A stretch of 22,008 nt of DNA from a virus. This document shows, piece after piece, positions 14 through 18,059 of this stretch; the stretch's first letter is position 1; each line of letters starts with the position of its first letter. The notes below the pieces were generated by a model that saw only the letters and a list, made by a program, of their open reading frames with translations, was not told the origin of the DNA and did not search any database. The stretch is from positions 1 to 22,008 of IMG/VR virus record IMGVR_UViG_3300011113_000184; one strand, written 5' to 3'. Made by a program: the position numbers and the translations under genes.

Positions 14-271
14 ATGTCACGCACATGCAATAACGAAGAAAAACTCAAGTTGACCCAATTGATCAATGAAGGTCTTGCTGTAACTCATGAGATCGAAACA
101 TTACAAGGTGGATTGACCGACACTATCAAGGCTGTCGCAGAAGAGCTTGAGATCAAGCCTAGCGTTCTAAAGAAGGCAATCAAGGTCGCACACAAGAGCC
201 GTCTTGGTGAGACTAATAAAGAAAATGAAGAACTCAATACTATTTTGGAGACTGTTGGTAAGACTCTGTAA
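14..271 (+). CDS. dsbA: DsbA-like double-stranded DNA-binding protein
   Basis: A small 85-residue charged, mostly helical protein. Its length, its central segment (about residues 36-65, with a DELGV-like stretch EELEIKPSVLKKAIK) and its place beside the polymerase resemble T4 DsbA, a small dsDNA-binding protein that assists late transcription. The start has a good ribosome site (AGGAG at 4-8, six bases before the ATG). The stop overlaps the polymerase start by one base (TAATG), so the two are probably translated together. Homology is judged by eye from a short sequence; it could be another small DNA-binding or regulatory protein. The family name is likely, the exact role is inferred. Confidence 0.6.
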   Translation: MSRTCNNEEKLKLTQLINEGLAVTHEIETLQGGLTDTIKAVAEELEIKPSVLKKAIKVAHKSRLGETNKENEELNTILETVGKTL

Positions 272-2976
272 TGAGTTACGTTGACGCAATCCACGATAGA
301 GATAGTGACAGGATTTTCATTGTAGAGCGCCAGCCTGACGGTAAGCGCACATACAATGAATTCCCTGCCAACTATACTTTCTTTTATTCAGATCCTAAAG
401 GCAAATATCGCAGTATCTATGGCGAGCCTGTCACACGTTTCAGCACACGCAAGCGTAGTGAGTTTGAGAAAGAAAAACGAATCCACAGCAATAAGAAACT
501 GTATGAATCGGATATCAACCCGATATTCCGCTGCCTAAGTGAAAACTACTTAGGTTGTGAGCCTCCAAAACTCCATACATGTTTCTTTGACATTGAGGTA
601 GATTTTGATCCGGAAAAGGGTTTTAGCCCCACTAGTGACCCTTTCAATCCGGTGACAGCTATCTCGATGTACTTGGATTGGCAAGATACATTGATCACGC
701 TTGCTATTCCTCCCAAGCATATGAGTGATGAGACTGCTCAGGATCTTACCACTGACTTGAGCAATACTATATTGTTCAGATCAGAGATTGAAATGTTTGA
801 AACATTCTTTGAATTGATCAAAGATGCAGACGTACTCACTGGTTGGAACTCTGAAGGATACGATATTCCATACATGGTCAATCGTGTCACAAGAATCATG
901 AGCAAAGATGACACACGCAAATTCTGTTTGCTTGGTCAGACTCCCAAAGCAAGAACATATGAACGTTTCGGTAAAGAAGAAACAACTTATGACCTTGTTG
1001 GTCGCATTCATATGGACTATCTACAGTTGTATAAGAAGTATAACTACGAGTCACGCCATAGTTATAAACTAGACTTCATCGGTGAGATGGAAATCGGTGA
1101 GAACAAGACACAGTATGAAGGTACATTGGATCAATTGTATAACAAGGACTTCAAGAAGTTCTTAGAATACAATCGACAGGATACTATGTTGTTGGTCAAG
1201 ATTCATAACAAACTCAAGTTCCTTGATCTTGCTAACGCACTAGCGCATGAGAATACTGTGTTACTTCCAACTGTCATGGGTTCAGTTGCTATGATTGAAA
1301 TGGCTGTCATGAACGAGGCACATGAGCGCGGCATGATGGTTCCTGACAAGAAGAAAAATATCAGCGACGGTGAGATGGCTGCTGCCGGCGCGTATGTCGC
1401 TGTGCCTAAGAAAGGCATTCATGAATGGGTAGGCGCCGTCGATATCAACAGTCTGTATCCTAGTGCTATCCGCACACTCAACATGGCTCCCGAAACAATC
1501 GTTGCTCAAGTTCGTCAAACACTAACTGAGCAACACTTGATAGATAAGGCAAGAAAACTTGCTAGTGAGAAGGCACGATACGACGAAGATGACGAAGTTG
1601 AGATGAGTTCGTTACTATGGGAAGGCATGTTCGGCACACTTGAATATGAAGCCATCATGAATCAAGAGCGTGGTACTATGCTGACCGTCGATTTTGAGAG
1701 TGGCGACAGCGTAGAAATGAGTGCTGCTGAAGTTTGGAAACTTATCTTTGATAGCAACAAGCCATATATCTTGAGTGCGAACGGTACGATCTTTAGAAGC
1801 GATCAAGAAGGTATTATCCCGGGTCTGTTGACACGTTGGTATAGTGATCGTAAAGATATGCAAAAGAAACTCAAAGAAAGTACTACTAAGGAAGATATTG
1901 AGTATTGGGATAAGCGTCAGTTAGTTCGCAAGATTTTACTAAACTCAGCGTATGGCGCATTGTTGAACGAACATTGCCGCTTCTATGATAAGCGTATCGG
2001 TCAGAGTGTAACACTAAGTGGTCGTCAGATTGTCAAGCATATGAGCGGGCAGATAAACGAAATCATTACTGGCAAGTATGATTTCTATGGTGATGCTATC
2101 GTATATGGCGATACTGACAGTTGTTACTTTAGTGCTTGGCCCATACTCAAAGAGCAAGTTGATCGCGGCGATATGGAGTGGACTAAAGAACTTTGCGTTC
2201 AACTCTATGACAATATCGCAGAGCAGGCAAACGATACTTTCCCAAGTTTCTGTGAACGAGCATTTCATGTCCCGCGTAAACTATGTGTGATCAAAGCGGG
2301 TCGTGAATTGATCGGTGATCGTACATTGTTCATCACGAAGAAACGATATGCTGTCAACATCTTTGACAAAGAAGGCAAACGTCTTGATGTCAATGGTAAA
2401 CAAGGTAAGATCAAGGCTATGGGCCTTGACTTGAAACGTGCTGATACGCCTAAATATGTGCAAGACTTCTTGTTTGAAGTGCTTGAGATGGTACTTGCTG
2501 GTAAGACTAGAGAGGATGTGATTGAGCGCATCAAAGAATTCAAGATTGAACTTGGCAATCAAGATAGTTGGACTAAGGGTAGCCCTAAATCTGTCAATAA
2601 TCTTACTATGTATGGTGATCTCGAAGCAAACAGTAAGACGGGTAAAGCAAACATGCCAGGACATGTTCGCGCAGCATTGAATTGGAACTATCTGCGACGA
2701 GTGAATAGTGACAATTACAGTATGAAGATGGTTGATGGTATGAAGGTTATCGTATGCAAGCTCAAGCCCAATCCATTAGGCTTTACGAGCATAGCATATC
2801 CTACTGATGAACTCAGACTGCCTAAATGGTTTACAGAATTGCCATTTGATGATCAAGCGATGGAAGCAACATTAGTTGATAAAAAGATCGAAAACTTATT
2901 GGGTGTGTTGAAGTGGGATCTAAAATCTAACACAGACACAAACAGTACATTTGATGAATTGTTTAGTTTCGGATAA
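271..2976 (+). CDS. 43: Family B DNA polymerase, T4 gp43-like
   Basis: Replicative polymerase of 901 residues, close to the 898 of T4 gp43. The 3'-5' exonuclease comes first: Exo I FFDIEVDFD with D107 and E109, Exo II GWNSEGYDIP with D198, Exo III YNRQDTMLL with D304. The polymerase domain follows: motif A VDINSLYPS (D391), motif B KILLNSAYG (554-562), motif C YGDTDS (612-617, D614 and D616). All catalytic aspartates are present, so it should be active. The C-terminus STFDELFSFG resembles the C-terminal peptide by which RB69/T4 polymerases bind the sliding clamp, whose gene follows. Its start overlaps the stop of the DsbA-like gene. Confidence 0.97.
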   Translation: MSYVDAIHDRDSDRIFIVERQPDGKRTYNEFPANYTFFYSDPKGKYRSIYGEPVTRFSTRKRSEFEKEKRIHSNKKLYESDINPIFRCLSENYLGCEPPKLHTCFFDIEVDFDPEKGFSPTSDPFNPVTAISMYLDWQDTLITLAIPPKHMSDETAQDLTTDLSNTILFRSEIEMFETFFELIKDADVLTGWNSEGYDIPYMVNRVTRIMSKDDTRKFCLLGQTPKARTYERFGKEETTYDLVGRIHMDYLQLYKKYNYESRHSYKLDFIGEMEIGENKTQYEGTLDQLYNKDFKKFLEYNRQDTMLLVKIHNKLKFLDLANALAHENTVLLPTVMGSVAMIEMAVMNEAHERGMMVPDKKKNISDGEMAAAGAYVAVPKKGIHEWVGAVDINSLYPSAIRTLNMAPETIVAQVRQTLTEQHLIDKARKLASEKARYDEDDEVEMSSLLWEGMFGTLEYEAIMNQERGTMLTVDFESGDSVEMSAAEVWKLIFDSNKPYILSANGTIFRSDQEGIIPGLLTRWYSDRKDMQKKLKESTTKEDIEYWDKRQLVRKILLNSAYGALLNEHCRFYDKRIGQSVTLSGRQIVKHMSGQINEIITGKYDFYGDAIVYGDTDSCYFSAWPILKEQVDRGDMEWTKELCVQLYDNIAEQANDTFPSFCERAFHVPRKLCVIKAGRELIGDRTLFITKKRYAVNIFDKEGKRLDVNGKQGKIKAMGLDLKRADTPKYVQDFLFEVLEMVLAGKTREDVIERIKEFKIELGNQDSWTKGSPKSVNNLTMYGDLEANSKTGKANMPGHVRAALNWNYLRRVNSDNYSMKMVDGMKVIVCKLKPNPLGFTSIAYPTDELRLPKWFTELPFDDQAMEATLVDKKIENLLGVLKWDLKSNTDTNSTFDELFSFG
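2950..2967 (+). repeat. 18-nt direct repeat, copy 1 (polymerase C-terminal clamp peptide)
   Basis: The 18 bases tttgatgaattgtttagt occur here and again at 6217-6234. In both places they are read in the same frame as FDELFS. Here they form the end of the DNA polymerase, the expected clamp-binding position. Confidence 0.9.
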
Positions 2977-3772: not shown

Positions 3773-4095
3773 TAAGGATAGTATCAAATACACAACCAAT
3801 TGTCTGGCAGATAGATAAACAATATCTACTGCCAGCACAAAGCGGTCAAGTTCGCTGGAACGGTAATAGTAAAGAATTTGAAGTGTGTGATAACGGCAGC
3901 GGAAGTTGGTATCGTATCAATCCTGAAGTAGAATTACGAAGTGGTCCCGAACTACTTGAAGTGATAGAGTGGGCTAAAAAGAAGATGATAGAAGAAAAGA
4001 AAATTGAAAAATTAGCCCAACAATATACTGCTGTAAAAGATGCTAAGGAAAAATTAGAACTTGTAATGAGATTGGTGCAGGATGAAAAAGATTGA
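3769..4095 (+). CDS. Clamp-adjacent hypothetical protein
   Basis: A 108-residue protein that I cannot assign. It begins at a GTG that overlaps the clamp stop (GTGA), so it is probably translationally coupled to the clamp. The N-terminal half (to about residue 55) is beta-rich and ends with a GSWYRINPEVEL segment; the C-terminal half is a charged helix, likely a coiled coil. Residues 19-24 read YLLPAQ, the same six residues found near the clamp C-terminus. Its place suggests a replication or late-transcription accessory role, but this is inference. Confidence 0.65.
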   Translation: MIRIVSNTQPIVWQIDKQYLLPAQSGQVRWNGNSKEFEVCDNGSGSWYRINPEVELRSGPELLEVIEWAKKKMIEEKKIEKLAQQYTAVKDAKEKLELVMRLVQDEKD

Positions 4096-4772
4096 TGAAT
4101 TGTATGGATAAAACACAGCATATCTGTGCGTTTGATATATTTGAAACTAATGTAGGTAATATATATCTTTCAAATAGGTACCCTGTTGCATATATTCCTA
4201 TTTCTAAGAACGCATCAACTTGGGCTAAAAATTACTTTTCAAATACCCTAAATTGGAAATTAGATTGTGATGAATCTATAAAATTATATAATCATAACGG
4301 ATGGCATATTTTCTCTACATTGAAGTTTTATAGAAAGATAGTAATACTACGTGATCCTATTGACAGATGGATTTCGGGTATAATTCAATACTTTTATACC
4401 TATGTTTCGGATAACTTTATTATAAATGATGAGATTTTAGATTACTTTTTTGCTAAAATATGTTTTGATCATCATACTATACCGCAAGTAAATTTCTTAC
4501 ATAATTTACAAATAGATACTATAGATTTTTTTATGATGAATGAAAATTTAGAACATAATTTGAACAATTACTTATTTTCTAATCTACCGAACGAATATAT
4601 TGAGATCCCTAACGAGTTGTATAAAAATAAAACACCTCTTATGGATAAGCCTGTGTACGATAAAATTAAAGAATTGATCAATACTAATCCTAAATATAGA
4701 AACAAAATTACTAATTTTTATAAATTAGATTATCAACTTATCAACAGTGTAAAATTTTATGAAGCAAATTGA
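4095..4772 (+). CDS. Sulfotransferase-like protein
   Basis: A 225-residue protein with the two signatures of PAPS-dependent sulfotransferases: an N-terminal phosphosulfate loop PISKNAST (about 35-42) and the 3'-phosphate motif RDPIDRWISG (about 86-95). The family moves sulfate from PAPS to sugars or other hydroxyl or amino groups. I chose the ATG at 4095, which overlaps the previous stop (TGATG); a TTG at 4092 is in frame but unlikely. The gene is far more AT-rich than its neighbours (9 of 60 bases are G or C at 4501-4560, against 24 of 60 at 5161-5220), which suggests recent acquisition. The substrate is unknown; virion or host surface sugar is possible. Confidence 0.75.
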   Translation: MNCMDKTQHICAFDIFETNVGNIYLSNRYPVAYIPISKNASTWAKNYFSNTLNWKLDCDESIKLYNHNGWHIFSTLKFYRKIVILRDPIDRWISGIIQYFYTYVSDNFIINDEILDYFFAKICFDHHTIPQVNFLHNLQIDTIDFFMMNENLEHNLNNYLFSNLPNEYIEIPNELYKNKTPLMDKPVYDKIKELINTNPKYRNKITNFYKLDYQLINSVKFYEAN

Positions 4773-6312
4773 TTTATCACAACAGCAAGATCCTAACTGG
4801 GCATTATTCTTGCCCGCAGTAAGTTCATTTTTTATCAGTGGACTAGGCAAGCAGCGCGAAGGTGAAAACTATTTCCCTGTTGAACGCATCCCTGCAGGCT
4901 TCAACGGTGATGTTGAATGTCTAAATTTTTTGAATAGTAGTAAAGGCCTATACACATATAAGTGGGGCCTCTATTCAGCAGGTCACGCTAACCTTGATAC
5001 TACTGTAGATGATCATGCTGAAAGCATCATCCGTAAGCGTGAGCAAGGTACGTTCATGCTTGGTGATAGTGGTGGATTCCAGATTCTCAAGTGTCAGTGG
5101 CCAGCAGACTGGAAGGATCCTAACTGTCCAAGAGCAATGGAAAAGCGTAAGGCTGTGTTGAAGTGGATGGATACATACATGGATTATGGTATGTGTCTTG
5201 ATATCCCTTCACAATCGTTGACCACTTATCATATCAAAGATAAGAAAACTGGTAAGAGCGCACATGGTATCAGCACAATCGAAGAAGCCATTGCTGCTAC
5301 ACATATCAATAATGAATACTTCATCAAGAATAGAAATGGTAATTGTAAATTCTTGAACGTCATGCAGGGTCGCAATCATAAGCAGTCAGATGACTGGTAT
5401 GCAGAGATGAAGAAATACTGTGACCCAAACATCTACCCAGACAATCATTTCAATGGTTGGGCGTTTGGTGGTCAGAACAAGATTGATATTCATTTGATGC
5501 TAAAGCGTCTTGTTCATATCATCTATGATGGACTTTTAGTTCCGGGCAAGCATGACTTATTGCACTGCCTAGGTACAAGCATCATGGAGTATGCTGTACT
5601 GTTTACTGACATACAGAAGGCTGTGCGCAAATATCATAATCCAAACTTCATGATCACATTTGACTGCGCTAGCCCATTCTATGGTGCAGCAAAGGGTCTA
5701 GCATATTTCAATACTAATATTGAGCATGGTAAGAAATGGTCATATAGTATGGAAAAGACTGCTGAGAATAAGAGTTATAGTAATGACAACCGTAAGTTTA
5801 GTGATGCTGTACTGGCTGAGGGGATTCATGATGTGTTTATGGATAGCCCAATCACTGACCGTATGACCATGAAGGACCTTTGTTACCGTGGCCAAGGCTT
5901 CATAAATAATCAAGGTCGTGAAACAAAGACTAGTTGGGATACACTTTCATACACATTGATTCAAGCCCATAATGTATATCAGCATATCACCGCTGTCCAA
6001 GAGGCGAATCGCCAGTATGAACAAGGTGTGATTCCCAAGATGATCATGAATGAGAATTTTGGTATCTATTTCGGTAAAGTTGTAGATGAAGTATTCAGCC
6101 AGAAAACTAGAGAAGATAGTTTGAATGTGATAGAATACTATAACAAGTTCTGGATGCAAATGCAGAGTGGTAGTCAGGGCATCAGCGGTAAGCGTACTGT
6201 GAATGCTATGACGATGTTTGATGAATTGTTTAGTGTTGAAAAAGTTGAGGAAGAAGTTGAAGAAACAATAGAAGATAGTGATGACGCTATCAATGAAGTT
6301 TTGGAGAACTAA
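4759..6312 (+). CDS. dpdA: DpdA-like DNA-guanine transglycosylase (TGT fold)
   Basis: A 517-residue member of the tRNA-guanine transglycosylase superfamily. GDSGGFQ (D103) matches the TGT substrate-binding loop, NVMQGR (200-205) the GIVQGG loop, WAFGGQ (234-239) the GYAIGG loop, and TFDCASP (D302) carries the expected nucleophile. In phages such enzymes are DpdA: they exchange guanine in DNA for a 7-deazaguanine. The CxCxxC zinc site of tRNA enzymes is not visible in the usual spacing after D302. Near the C-terminus comes FDELFS (487-492), identical to the end of the phage polymerase, then an acidic tail. FolE, QueD and QueE elsewhere in the window support a DNA-modification role. It overlaps the sulfotransferase by 14 bases. 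A tRNA target cannot be excluded. Confidence 0.85.
   Translation: MKQIDLSQQQDPNWALFLPAVSSFFISGLGKQREGENYFPVERIPAGFNGDVECLNFLNSSKGLYTYKWGLYSAGHANLDTTVDDHAESIIRKREQGTFMLGDSGGFQILKCQWPADWKDPNCPRAMEKRKAVLKWMDTYMDYGMCLDIPSQSLTTYHIKDKKTGKSAHGISTIEEAIAATHINNEYFIKNRNGNCKFLNVMQGRNHKQSDDWYAEMKKYCDPNIYPDNHFNGWAFGGQNKIDIHLMLKRLVHIIYDGLLVPGKHDLLHCLGTSIMEYAVLFTDIQKAVRKYHNPNFMITFDCASPFYGAAKGLAYFNTNIEHGKKWSYSMEKTAENKSYSNDNRKFSDAVLAEGIHDVFMDSPITDRMTMKDLCYRGQGFINNQGRETKTSWDTLSYTLIQAHNVYQHITAVQEANRQYEQGVIPKMIMNENFGIYFGKVVDEVFSQKTREDSLNVIEYYNKFWMQMQSGSQGISGKRTVNAMTMFDELFSVEKVEEEVEETIEDSDDAINEVLEN
6217..6234 (+). repeat. 18-nt direct repeat, copy 2 (inside the dpdA-like gene)
   Basis: This copy is identical to bases 2950-2967 and is in the same reading frame (FDELFS). 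It lies just before the acidic tail of the transglycosylase, a position where tRNA enzymes of the family have nothing comparable. Confidence 0.9.
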
Positions 6313-10305: not shown

Positions 10306-10464
10306 ATGTCCGACTTGATGAGAATCACAAGTGAGATCATATGGCATTTTACTTGTGATTCTTGCAAGAATTGGTGGAGTATTTCCAGCATGGATGGTTG
10401 GAAACCTAAACGATTATATTGCCCACACTGTAGTCACAAACATAATTACGAAGAAAATAAATGA
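10306..10464 (+). CDS. Small zinc-ribbon protein
   Basis: A 52-residue protein with CDSC and CPHC pairs about 19 residues apart, the pattern of a zinc ribbon, and an aromatic strand NWWSI between them. It begins at ATG 10306 (or the GTG directly before) and ends with a TGA that overlaps the next start (ATGA), matching the way genes are joined here. It fills the whole gap between the Hc1-like gene and GMP reductase. Such small proteins often bind nucleic acid or act as cofactors of larger complexes; the role here is unknown. Confidence 0.7.
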
Positions 10465-11540
10465 GAATAGAAGAAGATATCAAACTTGATTTCAAGGATG
10501 TATTATTCCGTCCTAAGCGTAGTACATTATCTAGTCGTAAAGAAGTAGAACTTGAGCGCAAGTATACCTTCAAGCATAGTGGTAAGGTATATACAGGCAT
10601 CCCTATCATGGCTGCTAACATGGACGGTGTTGGTACCTTGACTTTAGCAGAAGAAATTAGTAGACATAAGTTATTCACATGTTTGACCAAGAGTCATACA
10701 TTTGATATGTTTGCTGATAGTATTTTCAAGATCGGTACTGACTATTTTGCTGTCAGTACTGGTACTGGTGAAAGAGATTTAGAAAGACTACAACAAATCT
10801 TCAACGTCTATCCAGAGATTCAATATATCTGTATTGACGTTGCTAATGGATATAGTGAACACTTTGGTATATTCGTCAGTAAAATTCGTGACAAGTATCC
10901 AAAGAAAACTATTATCGCAGGCAATGTTGTGACCGCAGACATGACGCAGGAGTTGATATTACGCGGAGCTGATATCATCAAAGTTGGTATTGGTCCAGGT
11001 AGCGTTTGTACTACTAGGATTCAGACTGGAGTTGGATATCCTCAATTATCAGCTATTATCGAATGCGCCGATGCTGCACATGGTCTTGGAGGTCACATTA
11101 TCGCTGATGGTGGATGTACTTGTCCTGGCGATGTGGCTAAAGCATTTGGTGCAGGCGCTGATTTTGTGATGCTGGGCGGAATGCTTGCAGGCCATGACGA
11201 AGGTGGTGGTACTATTATTGAAGAAAGTCATCTAACACAGAAATGTAACCCTGGTACAAATAATTTAGTTTATGAACGTAAAAAGTTCGTAGAGTTTTAT
11301 GGGATGAGTAGCGATACTGCTATGAATAAACATAGTGGCGGTGTTGCCGAATATCGTAGTAGCGAAGGTCGTACTGTACGTGTCCCATATAAGGGACCAG
11401 TAAATAAGACTATACTTGATATCTTAGGTGGATTACGCAGCACTTGTACATATGTAGGTGCGGATAGCCTAAAGAACTTGAGTAAGTGTACAACTTTTGT
11501 TAGAGTAACACAACAATACAACAATGTATATGGAAAATAA
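10461..11540 (+). CDS. guaC: GMP reductase
   Basis: A 359-residue TIM-barrel enzyme of the IMPDH/GMPR family without CBS domains. [10 protein letters not shown] carries the catalytic C183, and [14 protein letters not shown] the phosphate-binding loop. The C-terminal part ([18 protein letters not shown], then [14 protein letters not shown] and TTFVRVTQQ) is that of GMP reductase rather than IMP dehydrogenase. It converts GMP to IMP and ammonia with NADPH, moving guanine nucleotides toward adenine. With a phosphoribosyltransferase at 15694 it could recycle guanine set free by the transglycosylase. The start overlaps the zinc-ribbon stop. Confidence 0.92.
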
Positions 11541-12361: not shown

Positions 12362-13042
12362 ATGAGTTATAATAAGACAAAAACCAGCCCGGAGTTGGGC
12401 AAGCGTGTTCACGAATATCTAGTCAAGGTCGGTGTAGAGACGCCAACGATAGAAAACAATCTAGACCGAAAAGAAAAAATCAGCATTATTGAAAGCCACA
12501 TGGCTGAGATCATGAAAACACTAGGTCTTGACCTAAGTGATGATAGTCTAGCCGAGACACCAACTAGATGGGCCAAGATGGCCGTAAATGAAATTTTTTG
12601 GGGTCTTGATTGGGAAGCATTCCCCAAATGTACAACTGTTGACAACAAGATGCACTATAACGAGATGGTCGTTGAAAGAAACATCAATGTCCAAAGCAAC
12701 TGCGAACATCATTTAGTAGTAATCGATGGTCTTGCTACAGTTGCTTATGTACCCAAGCAGAAAGTTCTTGGATTATCAAAGATCAATCGCATCGTAGAAT
12801 ATTTCAGTAAGCGTCCACAGATTCAAGAACGATTGACTGAACAGATTTTCCACACATTGTGCTATATCCTTGAGACTGATGATGTTGCTGTAATGATTGA
12901 CGCACAACATTATTGTGTCAAGAGTCGAGGTGTAGAAGATACTGGTAGCAGCACAGTCACAAGTCGTCTCGGCGGTGGGTTCAAGAACGATCCTGCAGCC
13001 AGAGCAGAGTTTTATAATATTGCGATGAAGGGCTGCAAATAA
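12362..13042 (+). CDS. folE: GTP cyclohydrolase I
   Basis: A 226-residue protein, close to E. coli FolE (222). ETPTRWAKMAVNEIFWGL (about 65-82) is the family signature, NCEHHL holds zinc ligands C114 and H117, and HYCVKSRGV holds C185. It turns GTP into dihydroneopterin triphosphate, the entry step to 7-deazaguanines and folate. Here the likely use is the QueD-QueE branch encoded downstream. It has the strongest ribosome site seen (AAGGAAGGAG) and its own leader, so it probably opens a transcription unit running to QueE. Confidence 0.96.
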   Translation: MSYNKTKTSPELGKRVHEYLVKVGVETPTIENNLDRKEKISIIESHMAEIMKTLGLDLSDDSLAETPTRWAKMAVNEIFWGLDWEAFPKCTTVDNKMHYNEMVVERNINVQSNCEHHLVVIDGLATVAYVPKQKVLGLSKINRIVEYFSKRPQIQERLTEQIFHTLCYILETDDVAVMIDAQHYCVKSRGVEDTGSSTVTSRLGGGFKNDPAARAEFYNIAMKGCK

Positions 13043-15034: not shown

Positions 15035-15202
15035 ATGAAACTAACATGGGAAAATAATAAAGGGGATAAAGTGATCGTTATCTATGATAAGAATTGCATC
15101 ACAGACAAAGAAGTAGAATTGAATCCGAGCATTGCATTGGATCCATTATTTGAAAGCTTGAAGAACAAGATCGTCGAGGAATACGAGAAGAAAAATGCCT
15201 AA
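15035..15202 (+). CDS. Small hypothetical protein upstream of queD
   Basis: A 55-residue protein: beta-like N-terminus (MKLTWENNKGDKVIVIYD), one cysteine (about 21), and a charged helix ending EEYEKKNA. GAGG lies seven bases before its ATG, and it fills the whole gap between the SufE-like gene and queD, overlapping queD by 8 bases. No family recognised. The linkage suggests co-translation with QueD. Confidence 0.6.
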   Translation: MKLTWENNKGDKVIVIYDKNCITDKEVELNPSIALDPLFESLKNKIVEEYEKKNA

Positions 15203-15692
15203 ATATTACAGCACTAAAACATATGGCAATGACAGGGGTTTGAGTTGCTGCTTTCGTCAGTGGCGAAGCACTCATAGCCATTGTAGTTTGTTACATGGAT
15301 ACAGTATTGGTATCAAGATCATTTTTGAAAGTGATACGCTTGACTGCCGTAACTGGGTCATGGACTTTGGTGGACTAAAGAAGTTCAAAGAGTGGGCAGA
15401 GTATATGTTTGATCATACTATGTTGATTGCTGAGGACGATCCACACTTGAATACATTTACAGACTTAGCAAATATCGGTGAACTTGGTCCAAAACATATT
15501 TCAGCATTGGCTGATTTACGAATAGTTCCTGCTGTAGGCTGTGAAAAGTTTGCTGAAATGGCATATAACAAGATGTCAGAAATCATAGAGGAAATGAAAC
15601 AAACTCCAGATGTTATTGTCAATGGTAATGTTCGTGTCAAAAGTGTAGAAGTTTTTGAACACGGTGCTAATAGCGCAATCTATGAAGGATAA
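15195..15692 (+). CDS. queD: 6-carboxytetrahydropterin synthase, QueD-like
   Basis: A 165-residue T-fold enzyme. RSTHSHCSLLHGY (24-36) holds H27/H29, the catalytic C30 and H34; WVMDFGGLKKFK (about 54-65) is the VxDFxxLK strand; FDHTMLIAEDD matches the LDHxxLN loop; EVFEHGANSAIY closes the domain. QueD turns dihydroneopterin triphosphate into 6-carboxytetrahydropterin. The usual HGH zinc motif reads HGY here (Y36), so the third metal ligand must differ, perhaps one of the THSH histidines. It follows FolE and precedes QueE in the pathway. Loss of the metal site could instead mean another pterin role. Confidence 0.85.
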   Translation: MPKYYSTKTYGNDRGLSCCFRQWRSTHSHCSLLHGYSIGIKIIFESDTLDCRNWVMDFGGLKKFKEWAEYMFDHTMLIAEDDPHLNTFTDLANIGELGPKHISALADLRIVPAVGCEKFAEMAYNKMSEIIEEMKQTPDVIVNGNVRVKSVEVFEHGANSAIYEG

Positions 15693-16974: not shown

Positions 16975-17218
16975 TACAAGAGAACAAGTGATTGATATCA
17001 TCAAGCCACTTGGTATGTATAATATCAGGGAGAAGAGATTGCGTGGCATGAGCCGTGATTACTTGACCTGGGACAAGAATGATGCTAATATGTTATATGG
17101 CATTGGTAAATATGGTAGTGATAGTTATGAGATATTTTTCAAACAGAACTACAATGTGCAACCAACAGACAAGGAACTAATAAGATATCTAAATGAAGAA
17201 GTCAACACTAAAAGTTAG
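16805..17218 (+). CDS. MBD4-like DNA glycosylase (HhH-GPD fold)
   Basis: A 137-residue helix-hairpin-helix glycosylase that resembles the catalytic domain of vertebrate MBD4. Shared landmarks are the WEHMVGVIMLNQT helix (20-32), KPLGMYNIREKRLRGMSRDYL (67-87), the hairpin LYGIGKYGSDSYEIF (97-111) and VQPTDKEL with D122 at the place of the MBD4 catalytic aspartate. No Nth-type lysine or FeS cysteines are seen, so it should be monofunctional. MBD4 removes T or U from mismatches with G. The GTG at 16805 has AAGGAG eight bases upstream; ATG 16834 is a shorter start. It overlaps queE by 26 bases. Confidence 0.85.
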   Translation: MRVKALRDDLMVQQQIKNEWEHMVGVIMLNQTGRKPVKFVLPKFLKKFPDARSLLNSTREQVIDIIKPLGMYNIREKRLRGMSRDYLTWDKNDANMLYGIGKYGSDSYEIFFKQNYNVQPTDKELIRYLNEEVNTKS

Positions 17219-18059
17219 CGAACTATTCTATAGCATTCAAGGCGAAGGTAGATATATGGGCGTACCAAGTGTGTTCTTACGCACATTTGGTTGTAACTTC
17301 ACTTGTGATGGCTTTGGTATGAAGCGTGGCGAGAAATCGCAAGAACGACATAATGTAAATCCCAAAGATTATAAAGAATATCATGACTTGCCGTTAGTAT
17401 CTACCGGCTGTGATAGTTATGCGAGTTGGGATGTGCGATTCAAGAAACTTAGCCCAATGTTTACTACAGACGAACTAGCAGAAAAGATTGTTGACATATT
17501 GCCACATAAAGAATGGGTTGATGAGCATCTTGTCATCACAGGTGGTGAACCCTTGCTTGGCTGGCAGCGTAGTTATCCAGACTTGCTTGAACATCCATTG
17601 ATGAACAATCTCAGAGAGATCACTTTTGAGACTAATGGTACGCAAGAGTTATCAAGAGAGTTAGCAGAATATCTTGTAGACTGGCAAGAGAATAAAAACT
17701 ATAGTCTAGGTCGTGGATATGATAGCGTGACATTTAGCGTCAGCGCAAAGTTGAGTGTCAGCGGCGAGAAGCGTGAAGAGGCGATACGACCTGAAGTTAT
17801 ATGCGATTATCAAAATATAGGATATACATATCTAAAGTTGGTTATCGCAACACAAGAAGATTGCGATGAAGCATTAGAAGTAATCAAACTCTATCGTGAC
17901 AGTGGGTTTATTGGCAATGTCTATCTAATGCCAGTAGGCGGTGTTGAGAGTGTGTACAGTCTAAACAATCGTGCTGTGGCAGAGTTTGCTATGAAACATG
18001 GACTACGATATAGCGATAGAATCCAAGTGCCATTATTCAAGAATGCTTGGGGTACATAA
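17193..18059 (+). CDS. queE: 7-carboxy-7-deazaguanine synthase, QueE (expanded cluster motif)
   Basis: A 288-residue radical-SAM enzyme. SELFYSIQGEGRYMGVPSVF (9-28) is the QueE N-terminal signature, VITGGEPLL (114-122) the SAM-binding GGEP, and FETNGTQ the following strand. The cluster cysteines are C34 and C38 (CNFTC), but the third, normally two residues later, appears as C73 in STGCDSYASW, which equals the CDTxxxW that follows the third cysteine in ordinary QueE. About 34 residues have been inserted between them. It would form 7-carboxy-7-deazaguanine from 6-carboxytetrahydropterin made by QueD. Longer than the usual 210-250 residues because of this and C-terminal parts. Confidence 0.92.
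   Translation: MKKSTLKVSELFYSIQGEGRYMGVPSVFLRTFGCNFTCDGFGMKRGEKSQERHNVNPKDYKEYHDLPLVSTGCDSYASWDVRFKKLSPMFTTDELAEKIVDILPHKEWVDEHLVITGGEPLLGWQRSYPDLLEHPLMNNLREITFETNGTQELSRELAEYLVDWQENKNYSLGRGYDSVTFSVSAKLSVSGEKREEAIRPEVICDYQNIGYTYLKLVIATQEDCDEALEVIKLYRDSGFIGNVYLMPVGGVESVYSLNNRAVAEFAMKHGLRYSDRIQVPLFKNAWGT

Follow-up and report, generated by a model that had tools for sequence, protein, structure and literature searches.

How a DpdA enzyme finds phage DNA and exchanges many guanines per infection is the question raised by the locus described here. The window, by which we mean the whole 22-kb IMG/VR phage fragment that was analyzed, encodes a family B DNA polymerase (PolB), a predicted sliding clamp and a DpdA-like base-exchange enzyme, and a short peptide is common to the polymerase and the base-exchange enzyme. 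A preliminary description of this DNA had proposed that the peptide tethers the enzyme to the phage clamp. Based on the analysis reported below, we consider it very likely that the phage sliding clamp has the DpdA-like enzyme among its clients, through a tail peptide that would dock on the clamp and provide for processive, replication-coupled guanine exchange. The features concerned are collected in Table 1.

Table 1. Coordinates of the window features, and of the 9g/CAjan-type genes compared with them
Feature	Coordinates	Strand	Basis
Family B DNA polymerase (PolB)	271..2976	+	Pfam DNA_pol_B 5e-40; exonuclease domain 1e-23; phrog_262 E 3e-202
PolB C-terminal peptide STFDELFSFG, predicted sliding-clamp-binding motif	2944..2973	+	18 bases at 2950-2967; relatives' ends; T4 position
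PCNA/gp45-type sliding clamp (predicted), 240 aa	3050..3772	+	AlphaFold2, Foldseek; phrog_12062 'unknown function'
DpdA-like base-exchange enzyme, TGT fold, 517 aa	4759..6312	+	AlphaFold2 + Foldseek
TGT-type signature GDSGGFQ, residues 102-108	5062..5082	+	invariant or nearly so, 48 diverse members
TGT-type signature FDCASPF, putative nucleophile D302	5659..5679	+	D302, A304, S305 invariant in 48 members
Predicted disordered DpdA tail, residues 471-507	6169..6279	+	pLDDT
FDELFS, predicted to bind the clamp, residues 487-492 (together with the adjoining MTM and acidic residues)	6217..6234	+	conservation; predicted helix
Acidic end of DpdA tail	6235..6309	+	net acidic fraction
GTP cyclohydrolase (FolE), preQ0 pathway	12362..13042	+	phrog_2197 E 4e-74
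QueD-like 6-carboxytetrahydropterin synthase, preQ0 pathway	15195..15692	+	phrog_2389 E 1e-36
QueE-like radical SAM enzyme, preQ0 pathway	17193..18059	+	phrog_2076 E 2e-52
9g/CAjan-type dpdA	L327:3007-3960 (9g), L350:3301-4221 (CAjan), L335-L345, L348		Q-x-LF end

The DpdA-like protein resembles tRNA-guanine transglycosylases

By sequence, the DpdA-like protein has no relatives in Pfam, PHROG, NCBIfam or PDB, and searches of PADLOC, Pfam, NCBIfam and PDB sequences for an assignment of this protein and of the clamp gave no useful matches. The family identity of both was therefore obtained by fold comparison. The AlphaFold2 model of the DpdA-like enzyme, built from 48 relatives, has a pLDDT of 90, and all 11 of its Foldseek PDB matches at E ≤ 0.001 are tRNA-guanine transglycosylases (TGTs), with a best E of 1e-6 and target-normalised TM values of 0.33-0.53. 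Residues D103, S104, G106, F107, Q108, D148, H269 and D302 are invariant among the 48 DpdA-like sequences. The FDCASPF signature parallels FDCV(L/I)P of TGTs, and the residue roles given here are those known for TGTs. The canonical zinc site of tRNA TGTs, CxCxxC...H, is not recognizable, there being no CxCxxC in the 517-residue sequence. When the window family was compared by hhalign with a single DpdA2 sequence from Vibrio phage nt-1, the probability was 7.7% (E 0.0045, 169 columns) and the signatures were aligned; with a single 9g DpdA sequence, the probability was 0.15% and no similarity was detectable.

The label "DpdA-like" used in the preliminary description proved right both in fold and in genomic context, the window also encoding FolE, QueD and QueE. 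QueC was found neither in the window nor in a 150-kb relative. Other genes in the stretch with the preQ0 genes encode an IMPDH/GMP reductase-domain protein (10461-11540), a SufE-like protein (14612) and a phosphoribosyltransferase (15655). On the opposite strand, a gene at 20969-22006 matches Pfam GP88 (phage gene product 88).

A predicted sliding clamp is encoded next to dpdA

The clamp gene is predicted to encode a protomer with the two-domain processivity fold. Its AlphaFold2 model, a monomer, has a pLDDT of 95.5 and matches PCNA by Foldseek with an E of 1e-11 and a TM of up to 0.72, among 486 matches at E ≤ 0.001. The arrangement of the genes is conserved as well: in 82 of 84 representatives dpdA is preceded by the clamp gene at a distance of at most 1.5 kb, and in 40 of these the distance is at most 60 bases. 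The two genes are directly adjacent in about half of the relatives; in the window, a sulfotransferase-like gene (4092-4772) lies between them. The clamp of Pseudomonas phage PA5oct (L082:2918-3664), a cultured phage whose DpdA belongs to the window family, carries the annotation "structural protein", and the PolB of the same phage (L082:1-2837) is interrupted by an ORF for a putative Hef-like homing endonuclease and so consists of two ORFs. In Phosso, the clamp match (L095:3969-4709) adjoins the PolB gene and the DpdA-like gene is distant, at 323216.

The peptide is conserved and the identical bases are not

As the preliminary description had reported, the polymerase and dpdA genes encode FDELFS by the same 18 bases in the same frame. 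The sequence TTTGATGAATTGTTTAGT is found at 2950-2967, as codons 894-899 of PolB, and at 6217-6234, as codons 487-492 of the DpdA-like gene, where the peptide reads MTMFDELFSVE and is followed by the acidic tail. No third copy is present in the window, even with up to 3 mismatches allowed. The expected number of such 18-mer matches is 0.02, and two copies were seen in 0 of 100 shuffles. Given the same peptide and the codon usage of the window, the probability of identical codons is about 0.006, a value calculated after the fact.

The identity of the 18 bases is unique to the window, as none of 80 relatives retains it; already in the closest relative, PolB has FDDLFS, with one base different. 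Since no relative keeps the bases, their identity is an incidental, chance by-product of the common peptide, and the suggestion of a recent copy from gene to gene, or of a constraint on codons, is rejected on the same ground. The conservation lies in the peptide pattern, and the peptide itself, unlike its identical bases, is not incidental. A mere coincidence of short peptides and codons within one genome would fit the lack of conservation of the exact 18 bases, but at the level of the peptide it is refuted by family-wide conservation, shuffles and permutations, leaving it extremely improbable.

The motif persists in a disordered, degenerate tail

In the AlphaFold2 model, pLDDT exceeds 90 over most of residues 1-468 and falls below 50 at 471-486 and at 492-507; residues 483-490 are modeled as a short helix. 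The motif lies past the folded core, in the predicted disordered tail, which bears out the earlier placement of the motif beyond the catalytic core. In window-type DpdAs, usually 21-39 residues follow the motif, and the mean net acidic fraction after it is 0.34 among 48 members.

An alignment of close relatives had been proposed as a check on whether FDELFS is kept in both genes. This check was passed: among the 80 relatives, which are 74-94% identical, the end of PolB is a [FV]xxLF peptide and an F[DEN]xx[LMF]F-type peptide is present in every DpdA, its site having moved in one (L018). The wider DpdA-like set comprises proteins that are 27-94% identical to each other, which were grouped at 70% identity into 43 clusters. 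Diverse members were gathered with alignment queries; PA5oct DpdA, used as a single query against viral contigs, gave no pattern match. The strict pattern F-x-x-L-F-[D/E] was observed in the tails of 30 of the 43 clusters and a relaxed pattern in those of 37, whereas shuffling of the tails gives expectations of 1.9 and 8.8 clusters, respectively. In 48 representatives, position 487 is F in 38, position 490 is L in 34 and F in 7, position 491 is F in 45, and position 492 is usually occupied by an acidic residue. No other column of this otherwise degenerate tail is as well conserved as F491.

The motif is weak or displaced in some members (L136, L141, L179 and Phosso, which ends VEGLF). Members without F491 show a motif-like peptide nearer to the C-terminus: L018 has FEELC and then a terminal STFNSFFE, L110 has FDSLV and then a terminal NFDSIFDIE, and L112 has a new peptide, FVSSLWEGDD, further on. 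Three large relatives provided 88 orthologue groups; of these, only PolB and DpdA have the motif at the C-terminus, and no further clamp clients with the same motif were found in these phages. Homologues from bacterial and archaeal assemblies were also compared. Where the gene lies beside a clamp gene, the motif is present in all five complete proteins; where no clamp gene is nearby, there is 1 match in 33, and that one lies inside a core helix. Chromosomal homologues of the DpdA core without the tail were seen in Azospirillum, Shinella, Sphingomonas, Limnohabitans, the Roseobacter group and others (L294-L324), apparently an uncharacterized bacterial TGT-like group. A weak homologue from Roseicella aerolata (L325) has RQLNLF, a match to the beta-clamp motif, close to its end.

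The DpdA tail resembles the end of its own polymerase

In the relatives, PolB ends in ST[FV]xxLFxFG-like sequences. We scored whole DpdA tails against polymerase ends, a measure preferred over automatic motif picking, which selected wrong segments in L084, L106 and L193. The score of a DpdA tail with the PolB end of its own phage was 20.9, compared with 18.15 ± 0.43 for the ends of other phages, a difference reached in 0 of 10,000 permutations. Control scores were 13.4 for shuffled tails and 10.2 for the clamp's own end. The excess was observed against relatives at 35-50% identity (p 8e-8) and at 50-65% (p 5e-4) and was weak at 65-80% (p 0.07), statistics which are only partly corrected for phylogeny and an effect which fades among near relatives. 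Likewise, possession of an FF-type peptide is associated between PolB and DpdA (Fisher p 1e-5, kinship ignored). In one matched pair the polymerase ends MQQFFEF and DpdA ends MNEFFEF; in Vibrio phage 2.275.O the corresponding ends are NNTDLFDW and NNNDLFGW.

These comparisons bear on whether the motif might instead be an intramolecular or dimerization element of the enzyme. TGTs dimerize, and hydrophobic FxxLF helices often pack against their own protein core; in addition, a second conserved helix follows the DpdA motif. However, the motif segment is predicted to be disordered and in several lineages has shifted to the very end of the protein, and the motif tracks the polymerase end phage by phage and is missing from clamp-less homologues that keep the core. 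We regard a role in self-association as highly improbable. The similarity to the phage's own polymerase, the regain of the peptide after loss, its occurrence in PolB and DpdA only and its absence where there is no clamp are four independent lines which argue that the DpdA peptide is a clamp peptide.

Comparison with known clamp clients

A close parallel is the sliding-clamp-binding motif (SCBM) of the T4 late sigma factor gp55, its co-activator gp33 and the polymerase gp43, which likewise combines hydrophobic and acidic residues, lies in a flexible tail at the C-terminus and is nearly identical in the polymerase and a second client of the same clamp. Of the proven clamp clients, T4 gp43 ends KASLDFLFG, at the same position as the PolB peptide of the window, and gp55 ends PSLDFLYEAND, with SLDFL[F/Y] in common. 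The gp43, gp55 and gp33 motifs are interchangeable and also function at an internal position (PMC2988020). Judged from their peptides, the PolB and DpdA of the window appear to form a pair with the same architecture as gp43 and gp55: the features of an SCBM client that are present are a tail peptide like the polymerase C-terminus and a cognate PCNA/gp45-type clamp in the same phage. Here, in contrast, the second client is a DNA base-exchange enzyme rather than a transcription factor, and the consensus is FxxLF[D/E].

T4 alpha-glucosyltransferase (alpha-GT) is also a phage DNA-modifying enzyme bound to the phage sliding clamp, as its binding to gp45 was reported (Sommer 2004, as cited in PMC13216743) and confirmed by pull-down (PMC13216743). 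It differs in its substrate, 5-hydroxymethylcytosine, and in its unrelated fold, and no recognizable motif of this kind is present at its C-terminus, SSFCFKEQFDIITK. Eukaryotic DNMT1 is a DNA methyltransferase that is tethered to PCNA by a short N-terminal PIP motif and acts in a replication-coupled manner. It shares with the enzyme described here the placing, proposed for the latter, of a DNA-modifying activity on a sliding clamp and differs in having an N-terminal PIP box, methyltransferase activity and a maintenance logic. Clamp-tethered DNA modification is therefore already known in principle, and base exchange would be a new case. No paper that connects a sliding clamp with DpdA or with the insertion of 7-deazaguanine was found in the titles, abstracts and term counts searched, subscription papers and preprints lying outside that scope.

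The T4 system also brings in another possible use of a true clamp-binding motif, namely control of clamp occupancy through competition with the polymerase, or recruitment of DpdA to late-transcription or packaging complexes. T4 clamp clients include the late transcription factors gp55 and gp33 (PMC2988020), and clamp binding by alpha-GT did not explain its in vivo dominance, its share being due mostly to expression (PMC13216743). Against such a role, the catalytic core of DpdA is that of a TGT, its active-site residues being invariant, and the same genome carries preQ0 genes. Since the catalytic core and these genes are present, delivery to DNA is the simplest role, and we consider the other roles unlikely.

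A model for clamp-directed base exchange

In the model that we favor, DpdA would swap guanine in phage DNA for a 7-deazaguanine from the phage or host preQ0 pathway. Its flexible acidic tail would present F-x-x-L-F-[D/E], the equivalent of the end of its own PolB, and this peptide would occupy the hydrophobic pocket of the PCNA/gp45-type clamp, whose gene precedes dpdA. Clamps that the replisome leaves behind would then carry DpdA along, and guanine would be exchanged in freshly synthesized duplex; the clamp would confine the enzyme to phage DNA with loaded clamps, making insertion processive and coupled to replication. We infer the DpdA-clamp binding, the processivity and the coupling to the fork from steps that were observed: the TGT and clamp folds, the conservation of the motif, the similarity to the own polymerase, the adjacency of the genes and the lack of the motif in clamp-less homologues. 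Modification of DNA behind the fork, as the preliminary description had it, is plausible, with T4 alpha-GT, whose clamp binding did not account for its share in vivo, as a caution.

A clamp tether would give a concrete answer to the question posed at the outset and would extend the "sliding tool-belt" idea to base exchange, suggesting that in these phages DNA modification proceeds from the replication machinery itself. In large phages, the motif together with the gene adjacency also indicates many DpdA and clamp genes that have gone unannotated, under the labels hypothetical or structural.

Clamp-type peptides in a second DpdA family

The characterized DpdAs of the E. coli laboratory phages 9g and CAjan are likewise TGT-related and needed for 7-deazaguanine insertion, with dpdA near clamp and polymerase genes and a clamp-type C-terminal peptide. 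They differ from the window family in being about 310 residues long, in accompanying a beta-type clamp, and in having the peptide at the last residues with no acidic tail. All 13 scored 9g/CAjan-type DpdAs (the type found in 9g, CAjan, other Queuovirinae and relatives, Streptococcus Dp-1 and others) have LF or nearly so at the C-terminus, whereas the same ending was observed in 0 of 42 products of neighboring folE, queD, clamp and pol genes and in a background of 5 of 616 phage proteins. The ends include RLQDLFDE, RVQELF, RIQELF, RVMELF (CAjan-type), NEQMELF, DQPGLF and RQRRLF. Several of them match the beta-clamp motif Q-phi-x-[L/M]-[F/L] (PMC11139829) fully or nearly so, and the conserved Q-x-LF end is an apparent beta-clamp-type binding motif. 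The dpdA gene overlaps the clamp gene start to stop or adjoins it in several of these phages and lies within 1.4 kb of it among those listed; the beta-type clamps are identified mostly by annotation, with weak Pfam matches or none.

Other DpdAs lack such a peptide. It is absent from the DpdAs of Typha and Hedgerow (Rosebush virus), and no clamp gene was found in the mycobacteriophage stretch read. DpdA2 of nt-1 is also TGT-related and has the signature DSGG[FL]Q, and its C-terminus, YPDFKS, contains no such motif. Approximately 28% of G is modified in Rosebush and about 0.1%, as dPreQ0, in nt-1, compared with 27-32% of guanines exchanged in 9g and CAjan (PMC6884629). Relatives that lack the motif and yet have modified DNA, which had been named as evidence against the tether, were not found within the window family but do exist outside it, in nt-1 DpdA2 and the Rosebush type (Hedgerow). 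Because DNA is modified in these phages, the clamp peptide is not required for DpdA chemistry; it is a feature of clamp-adjacent DpdAs and not a universal one. The idea of a base-exchange enzyme with a clamp-binding peptide has strong comparative support, from the conserved motif in a disordered tail, the own-polymerase similarity, the regain, the restriction to clamp phages and the adjacency.

The two DpdA families go with different clamps, PCNA-type in large PolB phages and beta-type in 9g/CAjan-like phages and Streptococcus Dp-1. It seems reasonably likely that 7-deazaguanine insertion is coupled to the replisome in many phages, and that at least two DpdA families unrelated in sequence have convergently gained a peptide fitting the clamp encoded next door, which would direct the enzyme to new DNA. 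A DpdA relative in Edwardsiella phage ZHS (L349:3277-4077) ends KQSLW, a variant of that C-terminal peptide, and has a beta-clamp-like gene 1.4 kb away.
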